The position numbers and the translations under genes are program-made. A stretch of DNA of 64,000 nt, from assembly GCA_947475895.1 (NCBI GenBank), contig CANJMF010000003.1, forward strand, positions 248,001 through 312,000, read 5' to 3'. Every line of letters begins with the position of its first letter. Position 1 is the first letter of the stretch. The stretch is from Fidelibacterota bacterium (GTDB taxonomy: Bacteria > Pseudomonadota > Alphaproteobacteria > Rhodospirillales > Rhodospirillaceae). This document shows, piece by piece, positions 26,380-50,930 of the stretch. The notes beneath the pieces are model-generated. The model searched no databases and had not been told where the DNA came from. It saw nothing but the letters and a program-made list of their open reading frames with translations.

Positions 26380-28257
26380 CTAGACCCGCAAAGGTTGCCA
26401 AGTGGTTAACGCCTTGAAAACCCTAGCAGTTACGCCCGGCCAGTCGCCTTGGCGCTGTTGTCTGAAAAGGCGGAGACTGTCGTACCAGGGCGAATCGACC
26501 CGATCCAGGAGCCAGCGATAATCGGGCATGAACGGCAACAGCATCCAGGTGGGCTTTCCCATGGCGGCCGCCAAATGCATGACGGCGGTGTCGACCCCGA
26601 TGACGAGATCAAGCTGACTGACGACAGCCGCCGTATCGGCGAAATCCTTCACCACACCATTACAATCGAACACGATCTTTCCCGACGGTAAGGCAGCGAC
26701 CTCGTCGGCGCGGGCTCCAACTTGCAGGCTCACGAAGTCGGCGTCGATTGCGTCTGTAATCTCGGTCAGCAATGCCGCGGGCATGGTTCGGCGGCGATCG
26801 ATTTTGTTATCGGGCGATCCGGCCCACACCAATCCGATCTTCGGTCGGCCTTGCGCATCCGGTAAGCGCAGATGCGTAGCAATATTCGCGGACGCGGAAA
26901 TATAGGTATCCGGATGCGGCACATTCACAGGCGTCGTGGCGAAAATCCGTGGCAGGCTCATGAGCGGCGCTTGGGCGATGAAGTCCGGCAGCGGGTCCCC
27001 GGCAGCGATGATCTCGTCGGCGACGTTCGCGTCTTGCAACAACCTCACGAGCACCGCCGGGCATTCGACAACAACGCGCGCGCAAAGTTTTTTGGCCAAA
27101 GCCGCATAACGCACGAATTGAATCGTGTCGCCTAGGCCCTGTTCGGCGTGGAGAAGGAGCGTGTCGTCGCGAAGCGGCGAGCCGTCCCACAAGGGTGCTG
27201 CGAAGTCGCGCCGACGCGAGCTGAAATTTCCCAACCGCCAGCGCCACTCGTACGCCTGCCAGCCTTCCGCCCATCGCCCTGTGAGCAGCAAAGTCCACGC
27301 GAGGTTGTAGTGCGCCTCCACGTTTTGCGGATCGAGGGCGATGGCATGGTGATAGCACCGTTCGGCTTCGGTGGTGTCGCCGGTCGCCAAGGTAGCGACA
27401 CCGAGATTGGTCCAGGCATCGATATTTTTCGGCGCCCTGGCCAGAATATGTCGAAAGAGCCGAATAGCTTCACCGGGCCGTTCGTCGGCCGTCAGGTGAA
27501 TAGCGAGCGCGCACCGTGCATCCGACGAAGCGGGCGCCAATTTTATGGCCTCGCGCAAATGAAGCTCTGCGTCGATGGCTTGCTTCATTTCGCTCAGCGC
27601 GTTGCCGAGATTGGTGTGGGTCGTCGCGTTGTGTGGGGCAAGTGCGAGTGCCCGGCGATAGTACGAAACCGCCTCCGTGAGATTCCCACGCGCCCGTAAA
27701 ATCACACCGAGATTGTTCAAAATATCGGCATCATAGGGACTAAGTTCGAACGCGCGGCGGAAACTTTCCTCCGACACCTTGAGGCGTCCGGCGCGGCGTT
27801 GCGCGTTGCCGCGTGCGCTCCAGACATCCGCGCGGTTCGGAAAACGCTGCACGCACGTATTCATGATGTCGACCGCTGTACTCCAGCGCCCCAGCGCCCC
27901 CAGCGCGCGTGCCAGGTGCATATAAGGCTCGGCGATCTCCGGCCACCGGTTGGTCGTATCGAGAAGGTGCGCGGCTGCGTCTTCGGTGTCGCCCTTCGCC
28001 AGCAACGCCACACCCAAACTGATGTGATAGAGCGGAGTGTCCGGCTTCTTGACGACGCAGCGGGCCAAAAGCGGCACCGCCTCTGCCGGGCGCCCAACGT
28101 CGATTGCGATCAACGCGAGGCCATGGATCGCTTCGATTTCGCGGGGATCGGCCGCGAGAATGCGTTGATAGGCGTCGTTCGCTTCCACCAACGCGCCCTG
28201 GCGATGCAGGGCGAGGGCGTCGGCGAGCTGGGCGTCGCGTGCGGGTGAACGGGTCAT
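26380..28257 (-). CDS. TPR protein with GT9 (heptosyltransferase-like) C-terminal domain
   Basis: A 625-residue protein. Residues about 10-335 hold roughly nine tetratricopeptide repeats (for example LNNLGVILRARGNLTEAVSY and HTNLGNALSEMKQAIDAELH). Residues about 350-615 resemble the GT9 fold, with LLLHAEQGLGDTIQFVRYAA, IGLVWAGSPDNKIDRRRTMP and DLVIGVDTAVMHLAAAMGKP. Such proteins transfer or bind sugars in polysaccharide or flagellin modification loci. The start at 28257 (MTRSPARDAQ) leaves 28 bases to the divergent paralogue. No membrane anchor is seen. Substrate unknown. Confidence 0.8.
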   Translation of the reverse strand: MTRSPARDAQLADALALHRQGALVEANDAYQRILAADPREIEAIHGLALIAIDVGRPAEAVPLLARCVVKKPDTPLYHISLGVALLAKGDTEDAAAHLLDTTNRWPEIAEPYMHLARALGALGRWSTAVDIMNTCVQRFPNRADVWSARGNAQRRAGRLKVSEESFRRAFELSPYDADILNNLGVILRARGNLTEAVSYYRRALALAPHNATTHTNLGNALSEMKQAIDAELHLREAIKLAPASSDARCALAIHLTADERPGEAIRLFRHILARAPKNIDAWTNLGVATLATGDTTEAERCYHHAIALDPQNVEAHYNLAWTLLLTGRWAEGWQAYEWRWRLGNFSSRRRDFAAPLWDGSPLRDDTLLLHAEQGLGDTIQFVRYAALAKKLCARVVVECPAVLVRLLQDANVADEIIAAGDPLPDFIAQAPLMSLPRIFATTPVNVPHPDTYISASANIATHLRLPDAQGRPKIGLVWAGSPDNKIDRRRTMPAALLTEITDAIDADFVSLQVGARADEVAALPSGKIVFDCNGVVKDFADTAAVVSQLDLVIGVDTAVMHLAAAMGKPTWMLLPFMPDYRWLLDRVDSPWYDSLRLFRQQRQGDWPGVTARVFKALTTWQPLRV

Positions 28258-28285
28258 CGTGACATACGTATCCTGACTTCGTACC

Positions 28286-29860
28286 ATGCCCAATATGAGC
28301 GCCGAACGCGAGATCATCGATGGCCTGATGCAAGATGCCGAAGCGGCGCTGACGCGCGGTGCTGTGGATAAGGCACGCACGCTCTATGGCGGTATTCTGG
28401 CCAACGACCCTCAGAACGCTGCGGCCCTGCGGCAACTCGGCGCCATCGAGGTGAACGGCGGCGATCCAGCCCGCGCGCTGGATCTCTTTCAAGCCGCCCG
28501 CGAGATCGGCCCCTTCGACCCCGACCTATGCCACGCCATCGCCACCGCCTTGCGACTGATGGGGCGCCCCGGGCTCGCGTTGTCGGCCTTAGACGCAGCC
28601 CTCAATATGAATCCCCGTCACGCACCGGCGCTGTACGACCGCGCTGTCGATCAGCAGCGCCGGGGAAAAATGGAGGCCGCGCGCCAGACCTATCAACAAC
28701 TGGCAGCGCTGGGCACGATGCATTTCGGCACCTGGTTCAACAACGGCGTGGTGCTGTTTCGCCTTGGTAACTTGGTCGCCGCCGAGCGCTGGTTTCACGC
28801 GGCCGCGCAGATCGATCCGCTCTCGCCGTTGCCAATGATCAATATCGCGATGATCTACCGCATCTGGGGTTTCGTGAAAGAGGCCGTTGCCTGCCTTGAA
28901 CACGCGGTGAAGCTGGCACCGGACAATGCCGAAGCCCACTGGAATTTGGCCAACGCGCTTTTGGTGTCCGGCGATCTATCTCAAGGGTTTCGCGAATACG
29001 AATGGCGCTTTCGCCGCGCCGGCCGCGGCGAGCGGTCATGGACATTGCCGCGCTGGACGGGTGAACCCCTCAACGGTCAGACCATCGTGCTGGGACTTGA
29101 ACAAGGTGCGGGCGACGCCATTCACTTCATCCGCTTCGCACCTGCAGTTGCCGCGCACGGTGGCCGTGTTGTTGTTGAATGTCAGCCGGCGTTGCGCGCA
29201 CTTCTCGCCACAGCACCAGGCGTCGCGGCGACGGTCGATCCAGGCACCGCGGTTTCGGGTGCGGTCTGCTATGCGCCGCTCATGAGTCTGCCTCATCTTC
29301 TCGGCACTACTCTTGAAACCATTCCAAGTACGGTCCCGTATCTTTCGCCGCCGGCCAACACGCCTGCGATCGACCTGCCAAGCGGCGGCCTGCGTGTCGG
29401 TCTCGTCTGGCGCGGCAATCCCCAGCACGAGCAGGATCAATGGCGCTCCGTCCCGCTCGATCTGCTGCGGCCGTTGCTCGATGTTCCCGGTGTTTCGTTT
29501 TTCAGTCTTCAGGTGGGCGAGGGGAAAGATGAGTTCGCCGCAGCTCCCTGGAATGCGCGCCTAACAGATCTCGCATCCGGCCTGAAAGATTTCGCCGCGA
29601 CGGCTGCTGCGGTCTCCGCGCTCGATCTGATCATCTCCGTCGATACGGCCGTCGCCCATCTCGCCGGGGCGCTTGGAAAACCGGTATGGGTGTTGATCCC
29701 TCAGGGTAACGATTGGCGCTGGCTGCACGGCCGTGGCGACAGCCCCTGGTATCCGACGCTGCGGCTTTTCCGGCAGCGGCGGCAGCGCAACTGGAAACCG
29801 GCCATCACCGCGATGATCGCTGAACTGACGGCAATTGCCGCCGCTGCCAAGACCGCCTAG
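28286..29860 (+). CDS. TPR protein with GT9 (heptosyltransferase-like) C-terminal domain, paralogue
   Basis: A 524-residue paralogue of the divergent gene at 26380-28257, with fewer TPRs (about five, residues 10-240). The GT9-like domain is at about 262-515, marked by IVLGLEQGAGDAIHFIRFAP, VGLVWRGNPQHEQDQWRSVP and DLIISVDTAVAHLAGALGKP. Both proteins keep the EQGxGDxIxFxR block and the D-T-A-V-x-H-L-A block of nucleotide-sugar-binding GT9 enzymes. ATG at 28295 is an alternative start. The next gene follows after 27 bases on the same strand. Confidence 0.8.
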   Translation: MPNMSAEREIIDGLMQDAEAALTRGAVDKARTLYGGILANDPQNAAALRQLGAIEVNGGDPARALDLFQAAREIGPFDPDLCHAIATALRLMGRPGLALSALDAALNMNPRHAPALYDRAVDQQRRGKMEAARQTYQQLAALGTMHFGTWFNNGVVLFRLGNLVAAERWFHAAAQIDPLSPLPMINIAMIYRIWGFVKEAVACLEHAVKLAPDNAEAHWNLANALLVSGDLSQGFREYEWRFRRAGRGERSWTLPRWTGEPLNGQTIVLGLEQGAGDAIHFIRFAPAVAAHGGRVVVECQPALRALLATAPGVAATVDPGTAVSGAVCYAPLMSLPHLLGTTLETIPSTVPYLSPPANTPAIDLPSGGLRVGLVWRGNPQHEQDQWRSVPLDLLRPLLDVPGVSFFSLQVGEGKDEFAAAPWNARLTDLASGLKDFAATAAAVSALDLIISVDTAVAHLAGALGKPVWVLIPQGNDWRWLHGRGDSPWYPTLRLFRQRRQRNWKPAITAMIAELTAIAAAAKTA

Positions 29861-29887: not shown

Positions 29888-30559
29888 GTGAGCGACGACA
29901 TACCGCTGATTTTCGCTGAGGAGCTGCGTCCGTCGCGCCGCAACGCCGCGCCCATTGCCGTGTTTCTGTCGGCGACCACGGGCGGGCAAATGCAGCAATA
30001 CGCCACCGCGGGATGGCGCGTTCTCACATCGCCCGATTTTAAATCCCCCACCGCCATCGACCTTGCCGCCGTGCCGGCGCGCACCGCGACCGAACAAGAT
30101 CAAGCACCATGCGCTTTGCTGTCATGCGAAGCGCCGCACTTGCGTCCCGATACAGCGGCCCGCATTCAGCAGTGGCAGCCCGATGTCGTGAAGATCCACT
30201 GCGCTTTTCATAACGTGTCGGATGCGGGTGCATTGGCCCCGGCGTTGATCGCCGCCGGCTATACGGTGCTGGGCGCCAAGTGGCGCGACGACAACAGCTT
30301 TGCCCTCAGAAGCCTGGAGTGCATCGTCCCGCTCGAACACATTCAGCCGCCGGAATGGGACCGTCTCAATCTCATTGGCGTGCGGGATGCGGAACATGCG
30401 CGTGCCATCCTCACGCTTGCACGGCTCTATTGTGGTGAGGAACAGCGCATTACCGAACTGCGCGTGGCCAATAAAATTCGCAACGATCACATCGCGAAGC
30501 TCGAGGACGCCATGATCGCCCAGCAGCCATCCGAGCTGTTTAAATTACAGCGGTCTTAA
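29888..30559 (+). CDS. Unidentified protein of the glycosylation block
   Basis: A 223-residue soluble protein starting with GTG (MSDDIPLIFAEELRPSRRNA). No known motif was recognised. It contains SCEAPHLRPDTAARIQQWQP and VVKIHCAFHNVSDAGALAPA, then GYTVLGAKWRDDNSFALRSL, and ends with a helical, charged tail (LRVANKIRNDHIAKLEDAMI). The central stretch recalls the C-terminal part of FkbM-type methyltransferases, but this is only an impression. It follows the TPR-GT9 gene by 27 bases and overlaps the convergent gene by 20 bases. Confidence 0.55.
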   Translation: MSDDIPLIFAEELRPSRRNAAPIAVFLSATTGGQMQQYATAGWRVLTSPDFKSPTAIDLAAVPARTATEQDQAPCALLSCEAPHLRPDTAARIQQWQPDVVKIHCAFHNVSDAGALAPALIAAGYTVLGAKWRDDNSFALRSLECIVPLEHIQPPEWDRLNLIGVRDAEHARAILTLARLYCGEEQRITELRVANKIRNDHIAKLEDAMIAQQPSELFKLQRS

Positions 30560-32303
30560 GTTTCTTTTTCAGCGCAGCCAAAAGCACGTCACCCACTTCC
30601 GCGCCGATGCCGTCGGTGCCAAGGCGCGCGAATTTAGCCGCGTCGCGCACGGCCTCGGCCATTTCGCGCCGCAGCGCGTGATCGTTTAACAAGCGCGTGG
30701 CCACCGTGACATAGTCGTCGGTGGATTTCGTCACCAAAACGTCGAGCCCGATTTCGCGCAACAACGCGCCGCTTTGGCGGCACCGCGCCGTGTGGCCTTC
30801 ACGCACCACCGGCGGGCATCCCATGGTCAGCGGATCGATCAACGATACCGCGCCGGAATAAGGAAAGCTGTCGAGGTAAAGGTCGGCCAGTTTCAAAACG
30901 CCGAGAATGGGCGCGCGGGTGCTTTGGGTTTCCAACACATGAAGCCGATCCACCGTGACGCCGTGGGCCGCGAAGCGTTCCTGAACGAACCGCAGAAAAC
31001 CTTCCTTGAAAGGATAATGCGTCGTCCAATTGGGATTGAACGGATACATCATCAAATGCGCGTTCGGCACATTCTCCAAAATGCGCGCCCAGGCGTTGAT
31101 CATGTCCGGGCCGATCTTGAAGAAGTTCGCGCCCGACGCCAGCAGCAACGCTGCATCCGGCACGCCGATGCGTTCGCGCGTCAGTTCCTCGGGCGCGGGC
31201 TGTTTTCCCGGAAACACATAATGATTCGACGAGCCCGGAATCAGGGCCAGTTCCTCGGTGTAGTCGTCGCTGGCATCGTCGGGCTCGTTGAGAACGCCGT
31301 TGATATAAATGTCGACGGTCTCGAAGCCCGACGTCAGGCTGCACGAATGCATGACCGCCTGAAGGCGCGCGAGACGCTGCGCCATGAGCAACGTCCACGG
31401 AAACCGACATGTGTTGGTGATGTTGGCCCCGGCCATGAGGATGTCGAGGTTTTCGTCGCGGATGATTTCGGCGGCGCGGTTAAGATCGTTCACGGGCAGC
31501 GCAACGAAATCGTCGGCGACGTCCTCGAAACTTGCGCTCACCGTTGTCGCGGCTTCGTCCGGCACAAAAGCGATCACCTGAAACACGTTGCGATCGAGGC
31601 CGAGCAAATGTCCGCGCACGGCAGCCGTTTCGCTCATGGCGCCGGGACATAGGATTCCGAGCCGGACAATGCTTTCGCCCTCGGCCCGCGGCAACGGCTC
31701 GTCGTCGTGCAAAAGGCCGGTGAGCTCAAGGTACATACGGATCAATTCGGCACGGCGCTGTGCCAGCTCGCGTAAAGGAACGTCCTCGCTGTAAATGGAC
31801 GAAACGCCGTAGCCGTCCATGAATCCCGTCAGCACTTCTTTGCGGAAATCATTTTCGTCGATGACCGTCACGGCCTTGTGGATTTCCTGCACCGTCGCTT
31901 CGACATGGGCCAGCGCACGGCGGCGCGCGCCGTCGCGCGTAAAGAACAGCGGAACAGCCAAAAGGCTTTTCACGACGGTTGCTAGAAGCGGCGTCGGTAC
32001 GTCAACGAGATCGAACGAGCGCTCGATGCTGTGGGGAAAGCTGAACAAGCTCAGCGCCAAATAAGCGCTGACCTTGCGCGCCGTGTCGTGTTCCACACTC
32101 AAGATGCGATGACACCGTTCGGCGACAGCTTGATCGACCTTGGTCAGCGGCAGATGACGCACGCCCGAATTGACCATGGTGAGAATCGCGTCGCCGGCCG
32201 CGTTGTGGCACAGCGCGGCAATGCGTTCGACGCGCCCTTCCAGGCACACTTCCGCCAAGTTCAGGCGCAGTTCTCGCAGGCGGCGTTCGGATTCAGAGTC
32301 CAT
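30540..32303 (-). CDS. Divergent GT41/OGT-like protein without TPRs
   Basis: A 587-residue protein. The N-terminal 210 residues are helical but without clear TPR signatures. The rest follows the GT41 (O-GlcNAc transferase/SPINDLY) plan: a first Rossmann half (about 212-330) and a second half with LKLADLYLDSFPYSGAVSLI and DPLTMGCPPVVREGHTARCR. Typical GT41 histidines appear lost: the SPDFxxH block reads CPGAMSETA and the L-A-G-H-T block reads LMAGANITN. It may use another donor or be a non-catalytic partner. Co-directional with waaA, 11 bases after it. Confidence 0.7.
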   Translation of the reverse strand: MDSESERRLRELRLNLAEVCLEGRVERIAALCHNAAGDAILTMVNSGVRHLPLTKVDQAVAERCHRILSVEHDTARKVSAYLALSLFSFPHSIERSFDLVDVPTPLLATVVKSLLAVPLFFTRDGARRRALAHVEATVQEIHKAVTVIDENDFRKEVLTGFMDGYGVSSIYSEDVPLRELAQRRAELIRMYLELTGLLHDDEPLPRAEGESIVRLGILCPGAMSETAAVRGHLLGLDRNVFQVIAFVPDEAATTVSASFEDVADDFVALPVNDLNRAAEIIRDENLDILMAGANITNTCRFPWTLLMAQRLARLQAVMHSCSLTSGFETVDIYINGVLNEPDDASDDYTEELALIPGSSNHYVFPGKQPAPEELTRERIGVPDAALLLASGANFFKIGPDMINAWARILENVPNAHLMMYPFNPNWTTHYPFKEGFLRFVQERFAAHGVTVDRLHVLETQSTRAPILGVLKLADLYLDSFPYSGAVSLIDPLTMGCPPVVREGHTARCRQSGALLREIGLDVLVTKSTDDYVTVATRLLNDHALRREMAEAVRDAAKFARLGTDGIGAEVGDVLLAALKKKLKTAVI

Positions 32304-32314: not shown

Positions 32315-33574
32315 CTAGCGGATTTCAAGATAAGGGGCGATGTGGCGCATCGTGTCGTCGAGCGCGGCTGCATGCCGCGCCACAACCTTTTGGCCGGCGG
32401 CCCCCATTTCGTGGCGCTCATCCGCATTTCGCAGCAAGTCATCGATTGCCGTTGCCAAAGTTGCGCTATCCGACACGGCTCTTGCCGCATCCGCCGCAAG
32501 AAGCTCCCGCGTCATATCGCGAAAGTTGCTCATATCCGGACCCCAAAGCAAGGCGCATCCCAGTTGTGCGGGTTCCGCCGGGTTTTGTCCGCCGCCCGCC
32601 GCCAAAGATTTACCCACGAAGACGAGATCGCAAAGCCGATAAAACAATCCCAGCTCGCCCATGGTGTCGGCAATATAGATATCCGTGTCGGGCGGAATAG
32701 TCGCCGTCGTGCTCCGCAGCACCACGTTCAACCCCGGCATTTGCGCCGCCATGTTGGCGGCCTTTTGCGGATGACGCGGAACGATGACAGTCAAAAGATT
32801 TGGATGCGCGGCTTTCAGCTGCCGGTGAACGTCGGCCATCATCGTGTCTTCGCCGGGATGAATGCTGGCCGCCAGCCAGTGCGGGCGGTGTTCGATCTCG
32901 CGCTCCAAGGCGTCCAAGCTCTCTTGGTTGGCCGGAAGTGGCGCCGCTGCATATTTCAAGTTGCCCGTTACGCGCGCATCTCTGGCGCCCAACGCGGCAA
33001 AGCGCGTCCGATCCAGTTCAGACTGCGCCAGCACCAGCGCAAAAGCCGACATGCACTTGCGCGCCATGGCGGGCCACCGCTGCCAACCTCGAAACGCCCG
33101 ATCCGAAAGCCGGCCATTTACCACAATAACGGCCGTGCGCCGTGCGGACAGGGCCTCAAGCGTATTCGGCCAAAGTTCCGATTCCGTCCACACAACCAAA
33201 TCCGGCTGCCAATGATCGAGGAAATTTAGCACCCAGGCCGTCCGATCCAACGGCACGAACTGATGAACGGCGCCAATGGGCAAGCGTTCCGCCACAAGGG
33301 CCGCCGACGTGACGGTGCCTGTTGTTAAAAGAATGCCCCACCCACGCGCGGCAATGGCGTGGATCAGCGGCAAAAGCGATTGGGACTCACCGACGCTCGC
33401 GGCATGAAACCAGATGAGTCGGCCAGGCGGTCGGGCTTGGCTCGCAATGCCGAAGCGCTCCGACAGGCGCGCCGGAATTTCCTTACCGCGGCGCGCGCGC
33501 ACCTTCAGCCAAACCACGAGGAAGGGCCCAGCCAGGAACGTCAGACAATGATACAGCGCGCGCGACACGGTCAC
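32315..33574 (-). CDS. waaA: 3-deoxy-D-manno-octulosonate (Kdo) transferase WaaA
   Basis: WaaA (KdtA, GT30) adds Kdo to lipid A precursor at the inner membrane. The 419-residue product has an N-terminal membrane anchor (ALYHCLTFLAGPFLVVWL). Family blocks are WFHAASVGESQSLLPLI with the catalytic Glu, LVVWTESELWPN, AASIHPGEDTMM, and FVGKSLAAGGGQNPAEPAQL followed by GPDMSNF. It sits between a small unknown gene and the GT41-like gene, apparently in one transcript, an unusual home for a lipopolysaccharide core gene. Confidence 0.92.
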   Translation of the reverse strand: MTVSRALYHCLTFLAGPFLVVWLKVRARRGKEIPARLSERFGIASQARPPGRLIWFHAASVGESQSLLPLIHAIAARGWGILLTTGTVTSAALVAERLPIGAVHQFVPLDRTAWVLNFLDHWQPDLVVWTESELWPNTLEALSARRTAVIVVNGRLSDRAFRGWQRWPAMARKCMSAFALVLAQSELDRTRFAALGARDARVTGNLKYAAAPLPANQESLDALEREIEHRPHWLAASIHPGEDTMMADVHRQLKAAHPNLLTVIVPRHPQKAANMAAQMPGLNVVLRSTTATIPPDTDIYIADTMGELGLFYRLCDLVFVGKSLAAGGGQNPAEPAQLGCALLWGPDMSNFRDMTRELLAADAARAVSDSATLATAIDDLLRNADERHEMGAAGQKVVARHAAALDDTMRHIAPYLEIR

Positions 33575-34060: not shown

Positions 34061-35227
34061 ATGTACGGTTTCTCGCAAATTGGGATCGGGTGGCAGGTGG
34101 GTGTGCCCAGCGGATGGGGCACCTACGGCGTCAATCTGGCCATTGAAGCCGGAAAACGCGGCATCGCGCCCGCGCTCTTTTTCCGGGCACGGGAGCTTAA
34201 TTTCACCGAAGCCCAAGCCGCCGCGTTGACCACGCCATTGGCGCGCCATGCCCACTGGCACGAGGTCCGCAAGCAGGGGCACGTGGATTTGGGCTTCCCC
34301 ATGCTCCATGCCCTCGGGGACAAACTCGATTTCCCGGACATGCTTCACGGCCTGAACGGCAAGCCGGATTTTGGCGTCGTATTTTTTGAATCCGCCACCA
34401 TTCCGGCGGCCAACATTGAAACCGCGCGCCGGTTTGCGGCCATCATCACCGGCTCCACCTGGAATGCCGACATCTTGAAGCGCCATGGCCTCACGGTGCG
34501 CAATGTTTTGCAGGGCATCGACCCCGCATTGTTTTTTCCTGCCTCGCGCACGGGCCGGTTCGCCGGGCGGTTCGCTGTCTTTTCCGGCGGCAAGCTCGAA
34601 TACCGCAAAGGTCAGGATCTGGTTGTGTCCGCCTTCAAGCGGTTTCAAAAACGCCACGACGATGCGTTGTTGGTGGCGGCCTGGCACAGCCCATGGCCTG
34701 AAGCTGCCCAACGGTTGTCGGCCTCGCCCCATGTGGCCGGCGCGCCGCCGATCAAAGCTGGCCGTGTCGATGTCACCGGCTGGCTTCAAGCCAATGGGCT
34801 GCCCGATCATTCCTTTGTCGATCTCGGCACGCTCGCCAACGCGGCGACTGCAGAACTTTTGCGCGAAGTCGATGTTGCGGTCATGCCCAGCCGATGCGAG
34901 GGCGGTACCAATCTTGTCGCCATGGAATGCATGGCGTGCGGCGTGCCGACGATTTTGTCGCGCAACACCGGGCACATGGATTTGATCAGCACTGACAATT
35001 GCTATGCGCTCGATTTCCAAATTCCCATGGGTCAGGTGACGGGCCGCGCCGATCTTGAAGGCTGGGGCGAGTCATCCATCGACGAGATTGTCACGAAGCT
35101 CGAGCAAGCTTACGCGGATCGAACTGATGCAGCGGCGCGCGGCGCAGCGGCTGCGCGGCAAATGACAGCGTGGAGTTGGGCGGTGCAAATCGAGCGCATG
35201 CTCGGCGACATCAACGCACTTATTTAG
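34061..35227 (+). CDS. GT4-family glycosyltransferase
   Basis: A 388-residue GT-B enzyme. The N-terminal half has a glycine-rich donor/acceptor loop ([20 protein letters not shown]). The C-terminal half carries [20 protein letters not shown], typical of GT4, and the retaining-type motif [20 protein letters not shown] in which E-G-G-T-N-L replaces the common E-x(7)-E pattern. It would transfer a nucleotide-activated sugar in the cytoplasm. It ends by overlapping the convergent TPR-GT41 gene by 8 bases. Acceptor unknown; context suggests flagellin or surface glycan. Confidence 0.85.
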
Positions 35228-41554: not shown

Positions 41555-42508
41555 ATGACTCAAGGAATCACGCTTACAAACGCGACACGCACAAACTTGC
41601 TGTCGCTGCAAAACACCACGACGCTCATCGGCAAGACGCAAGAGCGCTTGGCGACCGGCCTGAAGGTCAACTCCGCGCTCGACGACGCGCTCGCGTTCTT
41701 CAAAGCCCGAAGCCTCAATGATCGCGCCGAAGATTTATCGGCGATCAAAGATCAAATCGGCGACGGCATCAACGTTCTGAAAGCCGCCGTGCAAGGTCTC
41801 GAGTCGATCGAAGACGTGCTGAAGCAAATGAAAGCCCTTGCTCAGTCCGCCATCTCCGCTCCCGAAAGCATGACGCGCGCGAAACTGGCCAGCCAGTTCA
41901 ACGAACTGCGCAGCCAAGTCGACAATTTAGCGGAAGATGCCAGCTACAACGGCGTCAACTTGATTAAGAATACGATCACCCCGTTCCAAGGCGGCATCAA
42001 CGTCGGCGGCCCATTCAACGCCGACACGCTCACCGTCAAGTTCAACGAACGGACCGAACAAAAAGCCGTCAACCAGCTCATCGTCAGCGGCCTGCGCTCC
42101 ACCGACTATTCAAAGATCGTTGCTCAGTCGTCGACCACGAAGTACAGCGCCACGCAGTTGGCGCAGTTGGCGGCCGGCACGATCAATCAGTCCACGACAG
42201 TGTGGGGACAAACCGGCTCGGCGGCGATCAAAGCCATCACGGCTTCGATCAGCGCCCTCGACTCGGCGCTCATCACCGTGCGTCAGGCGTCGCAAGGCTT
42301 CGGCACCAACGCGTCGATGCTGCAGATTCGCGCCGACTTCACCACCAACATCGTCAACACGCTCAAAGGCGGCGCCGCGGATCTCGTGAACGCCGACTTG
42401 AACGAAGAATCGGCCAACTTGCTTTCGCTGCAAACGCGCCAGCAGCTCGGCACGATCTCGTTGTCGATCGCCAATCAGTCTGAACAATCGATCCTGCGCT
42501 TGTTCTAA
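41555..42508 (+). CDS. fliC: Flagellin 3
   Basis: A 317-residue flagellin of a longer subtype shared with flagellin 4. Relative to flagellins 1 and 2 it has extra residues in two surface-loop places: about 8 near NTITPFQGGINVGGPFNADT and about 15 around STTKYSATQLAQLAAGTINQ. Both conserved D0/D1 ends are complete (AEDLSAIKDQIGDGINVLKA and NEESANLLSLQTRQQLGTIS). The inserted loops are Thr/Ser/Asn-rich, so extra glycosylation sites are possible. A ribosome site AGAAAGGGG lies upstream of the ATG. Confidence 0.95.
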   Translation: MTQGITLTNATRTNLLSLQNTTTLIGKTQERLATGLKVNSALDDALAFFKARSLNDRAEDLSAIKDQIGDGINVLKAAVQGLESIEDVLKQMKALAQSAISAPESMTRAKLASQFNELRSQVDNLAEDASYNGVNLIKNTITPFQGGINVGGPFNADTLTVKFNERTEQKAVNQLIVSGLRSTDYSKIVAQSSTTKYSATQLAQLAAGTINQSTTVWGQTGSAAIKAITASISALDSALITVRQASQGFGTNASMLQIRADFTTNIVNTLKGGAADLVNADLNEESANLLSLQTRQQLGTISLSIANQSEQSILRLF

Positions 42509-42807: not shown

Positions 42808-43761
42808 ATGGCTCAAGAAATTACACTCACGACGGCGACGCGGACGAATCTGCTCTCGCTGCAAAACACCACGAGTTTGATCGGCCGCACGCAGCAGCGT
42901 CTCGCGACGGGCCTCAAGATCAATAGCGCGCTCGACGATGCGCTCGCTTTCTTCAAAGCGCGCAGCTTGAACAGTCGTGCTTCCGATCTTTCAAACATCA
43001 AAGACAATATTCTCGACGGCATCAACGTCCTCAAGGCCGCGGTCCAAGGCCTCGAGTCGATCGAAAACGTCTTGAAGCAAATGAAAGCGCTCGCGCAATC
43101 GGCCATCTCGGCGCCGGAAAGCATGACGCGCGCCAAGTTGGCCAGCCAGTTCAACGAACTGCGCAGTCAGGTCGACAATCTGGCCGAAGATTCCAGCTAC
43201 AACGGCGTCAATCTTCTCAAGAACACGATTGCTCCGTTCCAAGGCGGCATCCAGCCGAATGGTCCGTTCAACGCCGACACATTGACGGTGAAATTCAACG
43301 AACGTACCGAAGCAAAAGCCGTCAACCAGCTCGTCATCAGCGGTTTGCGCGCGTCCGACTACACCCGAATCGTCGCCCAGTCCGGCACCACGAAGTATAC
43401 GGCGGGGCAGCTGGCGCAATTGGCAGCCGGAACGATGAATCAATCCACAACGGTGTGGGGCCAGACGGGATCCGCGGCCATTAAGGCGATCAACTTCTCG
43501 CTGGCGGCCATCGATTCCGCGCTCGTCACCGTTCGTCAGGCCGGCCAAAGCTTCGGCACCAGTTCATCGCTGCTGCAGATTCGCGCTGACTTCACGGCTC
43601 AGATCATCAACACGTTGAAGGGCGGCGCCGCCGACCTGGTCAACGCGGACATGAACGAAGAATCGGCCAACCTATTGTCTCTGCAGACGCGCCAACAGCT
43701 CGGCACGATCTCGCTGTCGATTGCTCAGAAGTCCGAAGAAGCTATCCTGCGCCTGTTCTAA
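42808..43761 (+). CDS. fliC: Flagellin 4
   Basis: A 317-residue flagellin closest to flagellin 3: the same two loop insertions are present (APFQGGIQPNGPFNADTLTV and TKYTAGQLAQLAAGTMNQST). The D0/D1 ends are intact, from MAQEITLTTATRTNLLSLQN to SIAQKSEEAILRLF. It is the last of the four tandem copies and lies 134 bases upstream of flbT. No strong terminator follows, so some read-through into flbT-flaF is possible. Confidence 0.95.
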   Translation: MAQEITLTTATRTNLLSLQNTTSLIGRTQQRLATGLKINSALDDALAFFKARSLNSRASDLSNIKDNILDGINVLKAAVQGLESIENVLKQMKALAQSAISAPESMTRAKLASQFNELRSQVDNLAEDSSYNGVNLLKNTIAPFQGGIQPNGPFNADTLTVKFNERTEAKAVNQLVISGLRASDYTRIVAQSGTTKYTAGQLAQLAAGTMNQSTTVWGQTGSAAIKAINFSLAAIDSALVTVRQAGQSFGTSSSLLQIRADFTAQIINTLKGGAADLVNADMNEESANLLSLQTRQQLGTISLSIAQKSEEAILRLF

Positions 43762-43895: not shown

Positions 43896-44294
43896 ATGCC
43901 GTTGAAACTTACATTGAAACCGAACGAAAAGGTGCTGATCGGCACTTCGGTTATCGCCAATGGCCCCGTAAAGACGGAATTTGTGGTGCTGAATCGCGTA
44001 CCGGTGGTGCGCGAGAAGGACATCATCACCGAGGAAAGAGCTGATACGATTGCGAAAAAGCTCTACGTCACGATCCTGAACATGTACATCACCCCGGCCC
44101 GTGAAAAGGATTTTCACGGTATTTACTTCGTTTTAATGAGACAGATGATCTTAATACCAGTTGATGCACGTGCCGTGGACCTGATGGTCGAGATGTCGCA
44201 GCATATTCTCGCGAGCGACCATTACCGCGCACTGAAGCTTTGTCGTCAGCTAATTAAGTTCGAGGCGGAGGCCTTGGCCAATGTCAAAAGATAA
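43896..44294 (+). CDS. flbT: FlbT, flagellin synthesis regulator
   Basis: FlbT is an alphaproteobacterial post-transcriptional regulator that binds flagellin mRNA leaders and, in Caulobacter, lowers message stability when assembly is incomplete. The 132-residue protein starts MPLKLTLKPNEKVLIGTSVI and has DIITEERADTIAKKLYVTIL and LMVEMSQHILASDHYRALKL, all typical. The gene overlaps flaF by 14 bases, so the two are coupled. Its direct neighbourhood of four flagellin genes fits its role. Confidence 0.95.
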   Translation: MPLKLTLKPNEKVLIGTSVIANGPVKTEFVVLNRVPVVREKDIITEERADTIAKKLYVTILNMYITPAREKDFHGIYFVLMRQMILIPVDARAVDLMVEMSQHILASDHYRALKLCRQLIKFEAEALANVKR

Positions 44295-44703
44295 AGTTGC
44301 TGCTTATGCGCAACAGCAAAAGCGGAACTTAACACCGCGCGAAGTGGAGGCTATGGCCTTCACTAAGGCGGCGTTGCTGCTTGAAGACGCCAAGAAGTAC
44401 ACGCAGAACATCGACGAGTTTTCCAAGGCGCTGCGGTTCAATCACTTGCTCTGGACGATCATCCAGGCGGATTTGACTGAACCCGATAACCAGCTCCCGC
44501 CGGAAATCAAAGCGAACGTCATGTCGTTGTCGATTTTCGTCGATAAGCAAACGGCCAAAGCCTTGCGCTCAAGCGTGCCGGCCGATCTCGATGTGTTGAT
44601 CAACATCAACCGCAACTTGGCTGCTGGCTTGCGTGCCGCTGTGCCGACAGGACCCGTTGAAGTGCCGCCGCCGACGCCGGCGGCATCGACAGGGTCGGCG
44701 TAA
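44281..44703 (+). CDS. flaF: FlaF, flagellin secretion/assembly regulator
   Basis: FlaF is a small helical protein that, in Caulobacter and related bacteria, promotes flagellin synthesis and secretion and opposes FlbT. The 140-residue product has TPREVEAMAFTKAALLLEDA and ALRFNHLLWTIIQADLTEPD, then LPPEIKANVMSLSIFVDKQT. It carries a Pro/Ala/Ser-rich C-terminal tail (about 122-140) not seen in the second FlaF-like protein at 59882-60232. It overlaps flbT and ends 6 bases before the convergent frameshifted gene. Confidence 0.93.
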   Translation: MSKDKVAAYAQQQKRNLTPREVEAMAFTKAALLLEDAKKYTQNIDEFSKALRFNHLLWTIIQADLTEPDNQLPPEIKANVMSLSIFVDKQTAKALRSSVPADLDVLININRNLAAGLRAAVPTGPVEVPPPTPAASTGSA

Positions 44704-44709
44704 CGCCGG

Positions 44710-46103
44710 CTACTGCGGCCTCAGCCACAGCGCTGGGGGGCCACCCAAAATTAAATCCGAATGCGTGCGGGCTTGCAAAGCGCCCGTCAACGTTTCGAAG
44801 ATGGCGTGTCTGCGGTTCCACGCGAATTTGCCCACGGCGTTGGGCGAATTGAACATATCGCTGATCCACATCACCGTATGTCCGCCCGCGTGGGCTTCCA
44901 GCATCGCCTTTGCCTCGGCGGGCGCTGCCAGCACATCGACTTCCACAAACACATGCTCCAGGGCCTTGAATCGCCGCCAGTGCGCGCGCCTGTGGTCCGG
45001 CGACGAAAACACCGCACCCATCTCGCGCTGAAATTCTTTTGCGACGGTGCTGGGGTCGCGCATGATTTCGGCGGGCACATACGCCACGGCGCGTTCAAAC
45101 AGCGCATCAATCCGCGGCCGCGCTGCCGCGAAGAAAGCTGCGAAGTCTTCCCCGTCCCATTCCGCGATCATCATGCGGCGCAGCGCCAAAGCCGGCGCGC
45201 TGTAATCATAGGTCACAACCTTCGTGCGCTCATGAAAACCAAAGGTTTCGAGAATCCGGTTCACCTTAAAGCCCGAGGCCAACACAAAGGCTGTGTCGAT
45301 GCCGGGACGGTACCGTAGCTGCGGGAACTCGGCGTCGGACTCGCTGTTGAACGCGAAAACCTTTTTGGGCGCATCGGCGCGGTCGGGAATATTGCGCAGA
45401 TGTTCAATCGTCCGGCGCAGTTTTTCGTCTGTAATCGCGGCAGGGCGCGTCAAATCGTCGAGGCCGGTGATCCAGGCAAAAAGATCCGCGCCGTGGGCGT
45501 CGCAATGCCACATAAACTTTTGCATTTTCTCGGGCCAGGATTGCACAGCCATTCCAGCGGCCCGCGCCGTTGATAGGGCATTCCAGCCGTGGCCAAAGCG
45601 GCCCTCAACAGCAGCCGATGTGCCGTTCGCTACGGCAAGCGTCTTTTCGCCGCTCGCTGGCGTGCCGTAAGCGGGGCGGCCAAGCTTCTCCCACGCGCGC
45701 CGATTTATCAGCACGCAGCCCTCGTGCATGTATAGGGGTAGGGGCCGTCGTCCATCAGGCGGCCCGTCATAAAGGTGCAGCCATCCAATGCTTCCTTCAT
45801 GGCGAACGAAAGCTGGTCGTATCCATGAAAAAGGTGGCCGTAAGTCTGAACGAGGCAAAAGTCTTTGGTACCCGCAGCAAGCGCCGCATCGACCGAGGCG
45901 GCCAAGTTCAACTCCAGCAAAGGCATGTGGAACGAAAATACGGAATAGAACGATGTCAGTTCCGCAAGGCGAATGTCCAATTCCATCACGCGCCGCGAAG
46001 GGCCGCTCTCCGGGTCAAAGCCCGGCAGGTTCACAAGGTAAAAGTCGACGTTATTGCGCACCGTGCGCTGCAGACCGGCATCGTTATAAAAAACCACGGA
46101 CAT
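44710..46103 (-). pseudogene. Frameshifted gene in the flagellin block (unidentified product)
   Basis: Two reading frames form one disrupted gene. The 5' part (46103 down to 45708) encodes 131 residues (MSVVFYNDAGLQRTVRNNVD, LVQTYGHLFHGYDQLSFAMK). The 3' part (45858 down to 44710) continues in another frame with LYMHEGCVLINRRAWEKLGR. They join at 45735-45738, where adding one C on the minus strand to the CCCC run would restore an intact protein of about 455 residues reading GPYPLYMHEG. This may be a true mutation, a phase-variable tract or a sequencing error. The product is soluble and matches no family I recognise. Confidence 0.75.
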
Positions 46104-46205: not shown

Positions 46206-49001
46206 ATGACGGATCAAATTGCCGCCGGTTCCGAGCGACCCTTGTCGCCGCTGATCCAGCAGGGACTCAGATTTCTCGAAGGCGGCGATGCTGCCGGCGC
46301 CGAGCTGTTGCTCGACACCTATCTCGCGCGCAATCCCGCCGATGCCGATGGCCATAACATCGCCGGCCTCGCAAAACGCATCCTCGGCAAAGGCGACGAA
46401 GCCCTCGATCACCTGCGCCAGGCGCACACGCTTTCGCCGCGCGAGCCCGTGTTTGCGGTCAATCTCGCCAAGTTGCTCGCCGATATCGACCGCGCCGAAG
46501 AAGGGCTCACGGTCATCGATGCCTATCTCGTGTCGCACGCCGGTCAGGCCGACGCGCTCATTCAGCGCATTCAAATTCTTCATCGCCTGCGCCGTTTAAC
46601 CGAGGCTACATCGGTCGCCCGCATGGCGATTGCGTTTCACCGCGACTCAGCGCGCGCACACCACATGCTGGGAATGTCCCTGTTAAAGGAAGGCAAGTTT
46701 TCCGAAGCCGTCGCGGCCTTCGACGAAGCGCTCGCCCGCGATTCAACAACGGCCGATACCTGGATCAATCGCGGTGTCGCTTTGCGCGAGACGGGTAACA
46801 TTGCAGAAGCCGAAGCAAGCTATCGCCGCGCGTTGGAGTTTGCACCCCACGATGCCATCGCGGTCAACAACCTCGCCAATGCCGTCGGCGCGCAAGGGCG
46901 CATCCCGGAAGCCGTGACCTTGTACCGGCGCGCCGTCGAATTGGACCCCGACTACGCCGATGCCAAGGCGAACCTGGGTCTCGCCATTCGCGAAGCCGGC
47001 GATACCGACGCGGCGCTGGCATTTTTCGTCGAGGCCATAGCGCTTCACCCGGGGCACGTCGTGCTCCTCAATGCCTACGGCAATACCTTGCGTCAGGCGG
47101 AACGCCTCGACGAGGCCATCGCTGTTCTAACGCGCGCCATCGAAAGCGGGCCTCAGTATGCCGAGGCGTACAACAACCTCGGCCTTGCCTATGCCATGCA
47201 CCATAAGCAGGAGAAGGCCGCCGAATACATGAAGCGCGCGGCCGAACTCAAGCCGGACTCGGCCATCATCAGCAATAATTACGGTGCGCTGATGGTGCGC
47301 ATGTTCCGTTTCGACGAAGCGGTCAAAGCGCTCGCCAACGCTGTTGCGCACGATCCCAATTACGACGAGGCGCTCATCAATCTCGGCGTCGCCCATTTCA
47401 TGCGGGGTGACGCGGGCGATGCCATCAGCGCCTACCGCCGTGTTCTGGACCGCAACCCCGAGAATGCCTTCGCGCGCTACAGCTTGGGCGTTGCCTATCT
47501 CGAGGATCAGCGTCTCAGCGAGGCGGAAGCGGAAATTCGCGCGGCCCTCGAGCGCGATCCCAAGAATGCCATGGCGCACAACACCCTGGGCGTTTTGCTG
47601 CTCGACCAGCATCATGTGGCCGAGGCGCGCGTGGCCATGCGCGAGGCCGCCAACGTGAACACGGAATCCGCGCCGGTGTTCTATAGCAACTATGCATTCT
47701 CAACCCTGTACGCACCCGATGTCGATAATGCCGAGGTGTTGGAGATTCACCGCGAATACGGCCGCCGCTTTGCGACCGACGAACCGGTGTTGTCTCAACC
47801 GCATCTCAATCCGCGCGAGCCAGAGCGCAAACTGCGCATCGGGTATCTCTCGCCCGATTTTCGCGCGCACTCCGTGGCTTACTTTTTCGAAGCGTTGTTG
47901 GAGAAGCACGACCGCGCCAAATTCGAAATCGCGCTGTACTCGGATACGACACGCCTCGATGTGGTGTCGCGCGCCATGCGCGCCGGCGCGGACGTTTGGG
48001 TCGAAACGGCGGGCCTCAGCGACGAAGCCCTCGCGCAAAAACTCAAAGCCGATGGCGTCGACATCCTGGTCAATTTGGCGGGCCACACCTCCGGCAATCG
48101 TTTGCCCGTCTGTGCGCTGAAGCCCGCGCCCATCCAGATCGAATACCTCGGCTATCCTGAAACCAGTGGCGTGCCGTCGCAGGACTACCGCATCGTCGAC
48201 GCCCGCACCGACCCGGAAGGGGTCAGTGACCGGCAATCGACCGAACGGCTGATCCGGCTCCCCGATTGCTTTCACTGCTACCGGCCCGTCGGCAGGGACC
48301 AGGCTCCTGGGCCCGCCCCGCACATTAGACAGGGCTACGTCACGTTCGCGTCGTTCAATGTCCTGCCCAAAGTGACCGATCAGGCCATTGCCGCCTGGGC
48401 GGCGATTTTAAAGGCCGTTCCGGGCTCCCATTTCCTAATAAAGTGTAAACAACTGCGGGACACGCGCGTCCAGGCGCGCGTGCGCGAAGCCTTCGTGCAA
48501 GCCGGCATTGAATCAAGCCGCATCGAGATGGCGGCCTTCATGCCGTCGGTGCAAGAGCATTTGGCGCAGTATGGGCGGGTCGATTTGGCGCTCGATACCT
48601 TTCCCTACAACGGCACCACGACGACCTGTGAATCGCTCTACATGGGCGTGCCGGTGCTGACCCTGCGCGGCAACAACCATCGCAGCCGGGTCGGCCTTAG
48701 CTTGCTGCACGCCATCGGACTCGCCGATGAATTTGTGGCCGACGATCTGGATGATTACATCGCGCGTGCCGTTGCGTGGGGCCGCGATCCCAAACCCTTG
48801 GCCGATATTCGTGCGCAAATTAGACCGATGATGGAGCGCTCACCTTTGCGCGACGAAAATGGTTTTACGCGCACACTGGAAAACACCTACCGTGATTTGT
48901 GGCGCCAATGGTGCGCCGGTCCCACCACCCACATGCTCAAAGCGCCGCCGGAATTGCGCGCCGAGGATTCCATCCAGGGCGTGCTCGTTAAGACGTTGTG
49001 A
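46206..49001 (+). CDS. Large TPR-GT41 (OGT/SPINDLY-like) glycosyltransferase
   Basis: A 931-residue protein, the largest in the window. Residues about 5-510 consist of some thirteen TPRs (NNLANAVGAQGRIPEAVTLY, YNNLGLAYAMHHKQEKAAEY, HNTLGVLLLDQHHVAEARVA). A GT41 catalytic region follows at about 540-905: LRIGYLSPDFRAHSVAYFFE, ILVNLAGHTSGNRLPVCALK and DLALDTFPYNGTTTTCESLY with MGVPVLTLRG. The Asp/His and Gly-His motifs of OGT enzymes are kept. TPR superhelices in OGT select protein substrates, so it probably glycosylates flagellin or another flagellar protein. Divergent from the frameshifted gene. Confidence 0.9.
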   Translation: MTDQIAAGSERPLSPLIQQGLRFLEGGDAAGAELLLDTYLARNPADADGHNIAGLAKRILGKGDEALDHLRQAHTLSPREPVFAVNLAKLLADIDRAEEGLTVIDAYLVSHAGQADALIQRIQILHRLRRLTEATSVARMAIAFHRDSARAHHMLGMSLLKEGKFSEAVAAFDEALARDSTTADTWINRGVALRETGNIAEAEASYRRALEFAPHDAIAVNNLANAVGAQGRIPEAVTLYRRAVELDPDYADAKANLGLAIREAGDTDAALAFFVEAIALHPGHVVLLNAYGNTLRQAERLDEAIAVLTRAIESGPQYAEAYNNLGLAYAMHHKQEKAAEYMKRAAELKPDSAIISNNYGALMVRMFRFDEAVKALANAVAHDPNYDEALINLGVAHFMRGDAGDAISAYRRVLDRNPENAFARYSLGVAYLEDQRLSEAEAEIRAALERDPKNAMAHNTLGVLLLDQHHVAEARVAMREAANVNTESAPVFYSNYAFSTLYAPDVDNAEVLEIHREYGRRFATDEPVLSQPHLNPREPERKLRIGYLSPDFRAHSVAYFFEALLEKHDRAKFEIALYSDTTRLDVVSRAMRAGADVWVETAGLSDEALAQKLKADGVDILVNLAGHTSGNRLPVCALKPAPIQIEYLGYPETSGVPSQDYRIVDARTDPEGVSDRQSTERLIRLPDCFHCYRPVGRDQAPGPAPHIRQGYVTFASFNVLPKVTDQAIAAWAAILKAVPGSHFLIKCKQLRDTRVQARVREAFVQAGIESSRIEMAAFMPSVQEHLAQYGRVDLALDTFPYNGTTTTCESLYMGVPVLTLRGNNHRSRVGLSLLHAIGLADEFVADDLDDYIARAVAWGRDPKPLADIRAQIRPMMERSPLRDENGFTRTLENTYRDLWRQWCAGPTTHMLKAPPELRAEDSIQGVLVKTL

Positions 49002-49100: not shown

Positions 49101-49112
49101 TTTTCGTAAAAA

Positions 49113-50930
49113 ATGGATAACCGGCTCGCGCTCGCTTTCAAATATCACGACGACAACATGCCCGACGCGGCATGGACGGCCCTGCGCGAGATTCTGGCGG
49201 AGGCAGAGGTCGATCCTTTGACGTTGAGGTTCGCGGCGGCCCTCCGATTGGAGATGTTTGCCTACGACGACGTTCTCCAACTCTGCGACCGCATGAACGA
49301 TGCGTGGTCGCGCGGTTTGAAAGCGCACGTACTCCAGCGCTTAGGGCGGATCGCGGAAGCGGAAGCGGCGCTGCGCGCAGGCCTCATCGAACAACCCAAC
49401 AATCCCGCCACGTGGAATGACCTCGGAAATATTCTCGATGAGCAGGGTAAAGTCGCCGAGGCTAAAAGCTCCTTCGAGCGCGCGATTCAATTGGACCCAA
49501 CTTTTTCGGCCGCACACACCAACCTCGGCGCACATCTGGCGAGCCAAGGCTATTTCGCTGCGGCCGCCGCATCTCATCAGCACGCGCTAAACGCAGATCC
49601 CGCCAATACCATTGCCCACATCAATCTCGGCGTAGCGTTCGTGGAGCAGGGCCGAATTGAGTCTGCCATCGAAGCCTTTGACGCGGCCTTGACGCTCGCG
49701 CCGCAAAACGCGGACGCTGCCGACAATCGTTTGTATGCGGCGCTCTATCATGAACCGGACCCTGCGACGATTTGTGCCGCCCACCAAGCGTGGGGACGCA
49801 CGTTGCCACCCGCCGTGCCCGTGCCGCATGACCGAAACGCAAACCGTCGTCTCCGCATCGGCTATGTGTCACCGGATTTTCGCAGGCACTCCGTCGCCTT
49901 CTTTATCGAACCGTTGTTGGCCAACCACGATCCCGCCGCCGTCGAGGTCTTCTGCTACGCCGATGTGGCCCAGCCCGATGCCGTAACGGCATGCCTCAAA
50001 GCGTCGGTGCCCCATTGGCGCGAAACCAGCGGCCTCTCTCACGCACAACTGCATCAACAAATCCTGGCCGACGGCATCGATGTCCTGGTCGACCTCGCCG
50101 GCCACACGAAAGGCAATCGGTTGCCGGTGTTCGCCCATCGCGCGGCCCCCGTGCAAGTCACCGCGCTCGGTTACGCGGCGACCACGGGCGTACCTGCCAT
50201 GGATTATCGTCTCTGTGATGTGGGCACGGACCCCCCGCCGGAGTTTGATTCATACGCGACGGAAACATTGATCCGCTTGCCGTCGGGGTTGCACTGCTAC
50301 GCGCCGCCCTCGGCAGCGCCTGCGGTCGCGCCGCTGCCCGCTTTAAAGAACGGTTTTGTGACGTACGGATCGTTCAATAAGTTCGCGAAAATATCGCCGG
50401 CAACTATCGAAGTCTGGGCGGCGATATTAAAAACGCAATCCACCGCGCGACTGATTTTGAAAAGCAAAGCTCTGGCTGAAGATGTCACACGAAGCCGCAT
50501 TTCATCTGCGTTCGCAGATCACGGCGTTGCGCCGGAACGACTGGAGCTGATCGGTTGGGCCGGCGACGACGCCGCGCACCTCGGGCTTTATGGCCGCATC
50601 GACGTAGCGCTCGACACTTATCCCTACAATGGCACGACCACGACATGTGAAGCGCTGTGGATGGGCGTGCCGGTCTTAAGCCTCGCGGGCCGAAGCCACG
50701 CCGCACGCGTCGGCGCAAGCTTGCTATCCCGCGTCGGTTTAACGGATTGGCTTTGTGGCGCCGCTGCTGAATTGCCCGCGCGTGCGCAAATGCTGACTGA
50801 CTTTAAGACTCTCGCAGAGTTGCGCGCAGCATTACGCACGCGCGTGGCGGCTTCGCCTTTATGCGACGGAAAAAGCTACGCGCGCGGCATCGAAGCCGCG
50901 TATCGCGCGATGTGGCTTACAGGTAGTTGA
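49113..50930 (+). CDS. TPR-GT41 (OGT/SPINDLY-like) glycosyltransferase
   Basis: A 605-residue protein. Roughly four TPRs lie at about 80-225 (WNDLGNILDEQGKVAEAKSS, HTNLGAHLASQGYFAAAAAS). GT41 is at about 245-600, with LRIGYVSPDFRRHSVAFFIE, VLVDLAGHTKGNRLPVFAHR, and DVALDTYPYNGTTTTCEALW followed by MGVPVLSLAG. All OGT active-site blocks are present. No clear ribosome site is seen before the ATG; the direct-repeat copy lies there instead. The 3' end overlaps the convergent flgL by 14 bases. It differs from the 46206 gene mainly in its much shorter TPR array, which suggests a distinct substrate. Confidence 0.9.
   Translation: MDNRLALAFKYHDDNMPDAAWTALREILAEAEVDPLTLRFAAALRLEMFAYDDVLQLCDRMNDAWSRGLKAHVLQRLGRIAEAEAALRAGLIEQPNNPATWNDLGNILDEQGKVAEAKSSFERAIQLDPTFSAAHTNLGAHLASQGYFAAAAASHQHALNADPANTIAHINLGVAFVEQGRIESAIEAFDAALTLAPQNADAADNRLYAALYHEPDPATICAAHQAWGRTLPPAVPVPHDRNANRRLRIGYVSPDFRRHSVAFFIEPLLANHDPAAVEVFCYADVAQPDAVTACLKASVPHWRETSGLSHAQLHQQILADGIDVLVDLAGHTKGNRLPVFAHRAAPVQVTALGYAATTGVPAMDYRLCDVGTDPPPEFDSYATETLIRLPSGLHCYAPPSAAPAVAPLPALKNGFVTYGSFNKFAKISPATIEVWAAILKTQSTARLILKSKALAEDVTRSRISSAFADHGVAPERLELIGWAGDDAAHLGLYGRIDVALDTYPYNGTTTTCEALWMGVPVLSLAGRSHAARVGASLLSRVGLTDWLCGAAAELPARAQMLTDFKTLAELRAALRTRVAASPLCDGKSYARGIEAAYRAMWLTGS

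Follow-up and report, generated by a model that had tools for sequence, protein, structure and literature searches.

The window analyzed here (64,000 nucleotides; positions 248001–312000 of contig C3 in a 3.3-Mb genome) holds an island of glycosyltransferase genes around four flagellin genes and flbT-flaF, which is read, at a probability of about 0.6, as a flagellin O-glycosylation island whose GT41-family enzymes resemble SPINDLY, the GT41 protein O-fucosyltransferase of Arabidopsis. The argument centers on two enzymes, designated like all genes below by their lower coordinate in the window: a long protein joining tetratricopeptide repeats (TPRs) to a GT41 domain (46206..49001, + strand, 931 aa), whose type is linked to flaF in relatives, and a short one of the same architecture (49113..50930, + strand, 605 aa), both of which match PF13844 and TPR models and possess a SPINDLY-like donor site. 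Gene context makes flagellin the likely acceptor, while binding site and gene linkage lean modestly toward a GDP-sugar, most likely GDP-L-fucose, as the predicted donor of 46206 and 49113. GT41 genes in flagellin islands are already known from Enterobacteriaceae, where GlcNAc was inferred as the sugar.

Conserved Gene Order around flaF and flbT

The four flagellin genes (39354..40238, 40434..41318, 41555..42508, and 42808..43761, all on the + strand), which account for all Flagellin_N matches in the genome, are followed by flbT (43896..44294, + strand) and by flaF, encoding the flagellin export chaperone (44281..44703, + strand), all of them recognized by Pfam. A 382-aa protein without family (44710..45858, − strand) then separates flaF from the TPR-GT41 gene 46206. 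FlbT is present in 46 of 61 genomes, the present one included; the loci of 39 of the 45 relatives were examined, and 37 were evaluable. Two (G035 and G010) were excluded from the denominator, as their contigs end 1.4 and 1.9 kb past flaF without a GT41, while G023, whose contig ends 0.7 kb past flaF, was kept as a negative, as PF13844 finds no match anywhere in that genome. A GT41-family gene stands next or next but one after flaF or flbT in 22 of the 37 evaluable relatives, and in 20 of the 37 it is no more than 200 bp away and shares the strand, with a 4-bp overlap in three. Since chance alone would be expected to give well under one such case (by the author's estimate, from ~14 GT41s per ~3000 genes), the association is not attributed to chance. 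In G007 and G013, the homologue of 44710 alone separates flaF and GT41, as in the window, and it occupies the same place at locus L076.

The catalytic GT41 residues are kept in 15 of the 22 linked genes; the other seven are divergent and come from other families of the order, PF13844 being confirmed at 55–82 bits for those of G038, G040, G042, and G060, and those of G044, G046, and G052 being counted without a Pfam scan. Accepting every match of a self-built GT41 hidden Markov model as a true enzyme was rejected, because eight weak ones (50–221 bits) were misaligned at the catalytic residues; these eight were removed before tree construction, and seven were retained in the count as divergent GT41-family genes. 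Among the relatives that remained uncounted are G028, the source of the eighth weak match, which has no PF13844 match; G021, in which a GT41 (118 bits, Pfam) lies one gene past flbT at a distance of 1.2 kb; G008, in which a gene of the 30540 type lies beyond waaA; and G005, which was scored as lacking the synteny and does not enter the Fisher tests described below. What follows flaF in G005 is a 46206 relative reduced to its TPR half (L022, 7497–9128; 62% over 478 aa), either a broken gene or an assembly fault. The G008 locus (L027) has one flagellin together with waaA and with genes resembling 29888 and the GT41 gene 30540, and within the stretch examined it has no gene of the 46206, 49113, or 35220 type.

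Beyond the linked GT41, a second GT41 of the 49113 type and then flgL follow in seven members of the window's family (G001, G013, G018, G019, G020, G024, and G026), with two extra open reading frames (ORFs) intervening in G020. In the more distant G040, G044, and G060, a gene for Maf, a flagellin glycosyltransferase of another kind, follows the divergent flaF-linked GT41; in the present genome, the Maf model PF20157 had zero matches in a search that gave no match in controls either.

The linkage also extends beyond the relatives. A single scan of named genome contigs with the 46206 catalytic domain yielded 77 loci, the nearest of which lie in uncultured assemblies, mostly labelled Rhodospirillaceae and some bearing other names. 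Seventeen loci are at least 63% identical to that domain, and flaF lies upstream in all 16 that reach upstream; nine of the 17 contigs correspond, in length, to relatives counted above. Among the 60 loci at 42–50% identity, a flagellin or flbT gene, in each case confirmed by Pfam, lies 0.2–1.6 kb from the GT41 in eight, where ~0.3 would be expected if, as the author assumed, every 4 Mb holds 1.5 flagellin loci. These eight comprise four Planctomycetota, Mariprofundus sp. KV, a Gammaproteobacterium, a SAR116 bacterium, and a Nitrospirae-labelled contig. As a separate observation, a plasmid of Indioceanicola profundi (L071) encodes a 932-aa TPR-GT41 directly adjoining a divergently oriented flagellin gene; this enzyme keeps Lys689 and Tyr744 and just 8 of the 14 SPINDLY residues considered below.

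This pattern bears on the idea of mere clustering, in which a lipopolysaccharide or surface-glycan locus happens to adjoin the flagellins. The idea can draw on the waaA and GT4 genes within the island and on the abundance of such enzymes elsewhere: the 26 PF13844 matches of the genome were grouped by the author into 14 GT41 ORFs, four of them in the island, and there are 15 places with FlmG-like genes (TPRs plus a GT9-like domain), two of them in the island, so neither type is confined to it. However, order and spacing are conserved across genera and families, and flagellin linkage is found in distant phyla, which leaves an accidental neighborhood highly improbable; chance clustering was rejected on the conserved order and spacing and on the recurrence in relatives and distant loci.

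Phylogeny and Donor-Site Residues

In a tree of 67 GT41 catalytic domains with ultrafast bootstrap (UFBoot) support, the TPR-GT41 enzymes of the island fall into three separate clades, namely the 46206 type (UFBoot 100), the 49113 type (100), and the 35220 type (99), the last represented in the island by a 655-aa protein with PF13844 and TPR matches (35220..37187, − strand) and including, in addition, a GT41 encoded outside the island in the same genome (L017). Proteins of the 46206 type are 925–947 aa long (11 proteins), and those of the others vary more (581–652 and 652–870 aa). Such separation fits distinct roles, and together with the conserved flbT-flaF-GT41 order it supports the proposal of the first-pass annotation that these enzymes are dedicated to flagellin. 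The description of the enzymes as resembling O-GlcNAc transferase (OGT), made in the same annotation, is not supported: human OGT groups with three Azospirillum proteins and six GT41s encoded outside the island (support 99), while the island GT41s and SPINDLY both lie outside this clan, and 46206 and 49113 carry most of the GDP-fucose residues of SPINDLY.

Arabidopsis SPINDLY is the top PDB sequence match of 46206, 49113, and 35220, and it shares with them the union of TPRs and a GT41 domain. At 14 donor- or active-site positions of SPINDLY taken from PMC10027727 and PMC9715652, 46206 and 49113 match at 11 each, 35220 at 8, and 30540 at 3, as against 5 for human OGT and 5–6 for the six OGT-clan paralogues of the genome. 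The conserved GT41 histidine (SPY H495) is His in 35220, 46206, and 49113 and Glu in 30540. Mutation of six SPINDLY residues abolished activity according to PMC10027727; five of these are retained in 46206 and 49113, with Ile592 replaced by Leu, and the fucose-contacting residues Tyr744, Ser496, Thr747, and Val497 are all retained. The triad K689/A731/Y744 reads K/Q/Y in 46206, K/L/Y in 49113, and R/A/Y in 35220, two of three in each case. Lys689 and Tyr744 are invariant among the aligned 46206 orthologues and occur in 106 of 131 catalytic domains in the named contigs, none of which has Cys744, although the scan was seeded with the 46206 type and is biased accordingly. The likeness to SPINDLY, known here from sequence, has its limits, as the island enzymes are bacterial and flagellin-linked and residue 731 is not Ala in 46206 or 49113. 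With OGT, they have in common the GT41 fold and the TPRs; they differ in their exclusion from its clan and in the equivalents of Leu866, Arg904, and Cys917, which are absent from 46206 and 49113 in the alignment.

These results weigh upon the earlier proposal of an ordinary UDP-sugar as donor, according to which OGT-like enzymes would place GlcNAc (N-acetylglucosamine) or another UDP-sugar on the flagellins. The enzymes do belong to the GT41 family, GlcNAc derivatives were inferred by De Maayer and Cowan for the enterobacterial island GT41s (PMC4875605), and some 46206 orthologues carry Arg731, as human OGT does. However, the invariant Lys689 and Tyr744 of the 46206 orthologues are both argued to disfavor UDP-GlcNAc (PMC10027727), and the OGT-type paralogues of the genome sit in their separate clan; a UDP-sugar was discarded as the default donor on tree position and donor-site residues, and the proposal as a whole appears unlikely.

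GDP-Fucose Genes

The genes gmd (621.8 bits) and fcl (516.8 bits) are adjacent on contig C1, both above their curated cut-offs. With Fcl tallied by hand at ≥460 bits (the author's cut; the curated cut-off is 500), all 16 genomes with a flaF-linked SPINDLY-like GT41, the present one included, possess it, versus 13 of the 21 without such a gene (Fisher p = 0.005), and at the cut-off of 500 the figures are 13/16 versus 8/21 (p = 0.01), both tests ignoring relatedness. NeuB does not discriminate between the two groups (12/16 versus 15/21).

GT41 matches occur in 99 plasmid records, and the loci of 10 were examined. A GT41 that keeps 13 of the 14 SPINDLY residues lies behind an annotated GDP-L-fucose synthase in Azospirillum sp. 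B510 (62 bp; synthase 511 bits) and in TSA2s (57 bp; synthase 483 bits, below the cut-off of 500); the distance is ~1 kb in A. ramasamyi and A. lipoferum 4B and 5.6 and 7.4 kb in TSH100 and A. oryzae. On five Azospirillum plasmids (L062, L063, L066, L067, and L068), GT41 together with GDP-L-fucose synthase, FlmG-like, or GT4 genes stands beside type I secretion genes, which suggests that the same toolkit acts there on another secreted protein. Two further plasmid loci, of A. brasilense and TSH58 (L064 and L069), combine two GT41 genes, three FlmG-like genes, and a 34061-like GT4 in a set resembling that of the island, with no flagellin match in the flank.

Alternatively, the donor of the island GT41s might be a GDP-sugar other than GDP-fucose, namely GDP-mannose, GDP-rhamnose, or a derivative. 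Positions 592 and 731 depart from SPINDLY although Lys689, which reads the base, is retained, and GDP-fucose and other GDP-deoxyhexoses have the Gmd product in common, both of which would suit such a donor. Yet the four fucose contacts are kept in 46206 and 49113, and fcl adjoins gmd here and adjoins the Azospirillum GT41 relatives, so that a different GDP-sugar is regarded as improbable.

Several observations count against a SPINDLY-like flagellin system using GDP-fucose. The rule of gene order fails in 15 of the 37 relatives. Examples are G029, G033, G037, G039, and G056, where flbT or flaF is present but the stretch lacks a GT41, G050 and G053, where the only such genes are FlmG-like, and G016, which has a GT41 upstream only. 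The nodes linking SPINDLY to the island clades are weak (support <65). Residue 731, one of three key selectivity positions, is Gln or Leu here, highly variable, and Arg in some 46206 orthologues; because it differs from SPINDLY and varies so widely, 46206 and 49113 may belong to the "intermediate" GT41s of PMC10027727. Furthermore, fcl lies outside the island, fcl or gmd flanks just 2 of the 77 genome loci, 4 of the 10 Azospirillaceae plasmid loci (Indioceanicola profundi among them) have no fcl in the flank, and the Azospirillum GT41s near Fcl have no flagellin in theirs; the disregard of relatedness in the Fisher tests adds to this side.

FlmG-Like Genes and Nonulosonic Acid

At its left end, the island carries two FlmG-like genes, 26380..28380 (− strand) and 28286..29860 (+ strand), whose products are 36% identical and combine Pfam TPR matches with a C-terminal GT9-like domain of ~290 aa. 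The Glyco_transf_9 matches are weak, at 28.7 bits for 26380 and 21.6 bits for 28286, respectively above and slightly below the cut-off of 22, and the GT-B fold assignment of both depends on this match only. Since the ORF of 26380 overlaps 28286, its true start is probably internal. Caulobacter FlmG, a cytoplasmic glycosyltransferase guided by its TPRs, binds flagellins through these repeats and attaches pseudaminic acid to them, and in published domain sizes it resembles the two proteins in having a TPR N-terminus and a C-terminal domain of such length (PMC7591256); it differs in its use of pseudaminic acid, and the island GT41s have a catalytic domain of a different family.

The first-pass annotation had found no nonulosonic-acid synthesis genes, which holds for the window and is incomplete for the genome, where LegB, LegC, a NeuC-type epimerase, and NeuB are encoded on contig C8. 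On that contig, eight FlmG-like TPR-GT9 domains are arrayed at 72969–85992 (L010), ~5 kb from LegB-LegC-NeuC-NeuB, a proximity that fits a nonulosonic-acid role for FlmG-like proteins. The relatives G031 and G053 have FlmG-like genes near flbT, yet no NeuB match.

Another alternative is that the FlmG-like TPR-GT9 proteins perform the main flagellin modification with nonulosonic acid while the GT41s act elsewhere, for example on secreted adhesins. The transfer of pseudaminic acid to flagellin by the TPR protein FlmG is proven (PMC7591256), in G025, G031, and G034 of the window's family the gene after the flaF-linked GT41 is FlmG-like, NeuB-type genes occur in this genome, and on the five Azospirillum plasmids the GT41 is near type I secretion genes and not flagellin. 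Nevertheless, this division of labor is doubtful, given that the neighbor of flaF or flbT is a GT41 and not a FlmG-like gene in the 22 relatives counted above, that G031 has its FlmG-like gene with no NeuB match, and that the linkage of GT41 to flagellin recurs in other phyla.

Proposed Mechanism and Significance

For the preferred reading of a SPINDLY-like flagellin O-glycosylation island, the following course is envisaged. Flagellins would bind the TPR superhelix of the long enzyme 46206 in the cytoplasm, prior to FlaF-assisted export, and the SPINDLY-like catalytic domains of 46206 and 49113 would move a sugar from a GDP-sugar, likeliest GDP-L-fucose, onto Ser/Thr. The GT8-like 38145, the GT4 enzyme 34061, and the GT41 enzyme 35220 may lengthen the glycan or vary it. 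The pair of FlmG-like proteins could conceivably attach one more sugar, possibly a nonulosonic acid of the legionaminic type whose synthesis genes lie on the other contig. To judge from the genes, the filament used for swimming probably bears a coat of sugar, which may be fucose.

A broader reading, offered tentatively and at somewhat less than even odds, is that bacteria own a SPINDLY-type cytoplasmic O-fucosylation system dedicated to flagellin and organized as a flagellin-flbT-flaF-GT41 operon, in which several paralogues act in parallel or serially. Related flagellin-linked enzymes would then exist in Planctomycetota, Mariprofundus, and Gammaproteobacteria, and SPINDLY, a regulatory enzyme of plants, would be akin to a fucosyltransferase acting on bacterial surface proteins. 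Nucleocytoplasmic-type O-fucosylation occurs in plants and protists; if this reading is true, bacterial flagellin is a natural substrate of it. Such a flagellin would also be a substrate on which the bacterial SPINDLY-like enzymes could be tested simply, of which very few have been characterized so far (PMC10027727), and TPR-guided flagellin glycosylation would employ different catalytic domains (GT41 and FlmG-type) at one locus.

Such a system would also call into question the GlcNAc assumption made for island GT41s. In Enterobacteriaceae, GT41 genes of flagellin islands were described, under the "SPINDLY family" COG3914, by De Maayer and Cowan (2016; PMC4875605). Like the present genes, these lie beside flagellin and are predicted to modify it; unlike them, they mostly come with methyltransferase domains, and GlcNAc derivatives were inferred. 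The terms "TPR", "tetratricopeptide", and "fucos" are absent from the main text of that paper, and searches of an open-access library on flagellin with SPINDLY, GT41, or fucosylation, and on SPINDLY in bacteria, gave no title or displayed abstract that reports a SPINDLY-type flagellin fucosyltransferase.

Other Genes of the Island and of the Genome

The gene list of the first-pass annotation was confirmed by a Pfam scan of the island ORFs, which agrees that three TPR-GT41 genes, one GT41-like gene, two TPR-GT9-like genes, a GT4, and waaA flank the four flagellins and flbT-flaF; PF13844 is above its cut-off in 35220, 46206, 49113, and 30540. The GT41-like gene 30540..32303 (− strand) scores 64.8 bits against a cut-off of 25 and has zero TPR matches. 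Beside it lie a 223-aa protein without family (29888..30559, + strand), the homologue of which adjoins waaA and the 30540 homologue in the relative G008, and waaA itself (32315..33574, − strand), a Kdo (3-deoxy-D-manno-octulosonic acid) transferase by Pfam, for which the top hit in NCBIfam, also a Kdo transferase model, falls short of the cut-off. The GT4 glycosyltransferase (34061..35227, + strand; Pfam) is kept in the islands of relatives.

Two putative GT-A transferases had also been proposed, of which one gained backing. The AlphaFold model of 38145 (38145..39047, − strand; predicted local distance difference test, pLDDT, 75.9) has glycogenin, a GT8 enzyme, as its top PDB fold matches in Foldseek (E ~1e-8, with TM-scores of just 0.34–0.48), and its prediction as a GT8-like GT-A enzyme is supported by this model. 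For the 312-aa conserved protein 37184 (37184..38122, − strand), the GT-A assignment was not confirmed, the model having a pLDDT of 57.7 and the sequence zero Pfam matches. The right border of the island is formed by a flgL-like gene (50917..52509, − strand), a name inferred from its Flagellin_C match.

For a genome of 3.3 Mb, the 14 GT41 ORFs and 15 FlmG-like places form a seemingly unusually large set of TPR-type glycosyltransferases, and many GT41 matches are found in most relatives of the same genus as well. At locus L016 (4877–6954), a TPR ORF and a GT41 ORF on the same strand overlap in different frames, possibly representing one frameshifted TPR-GT41 gene.

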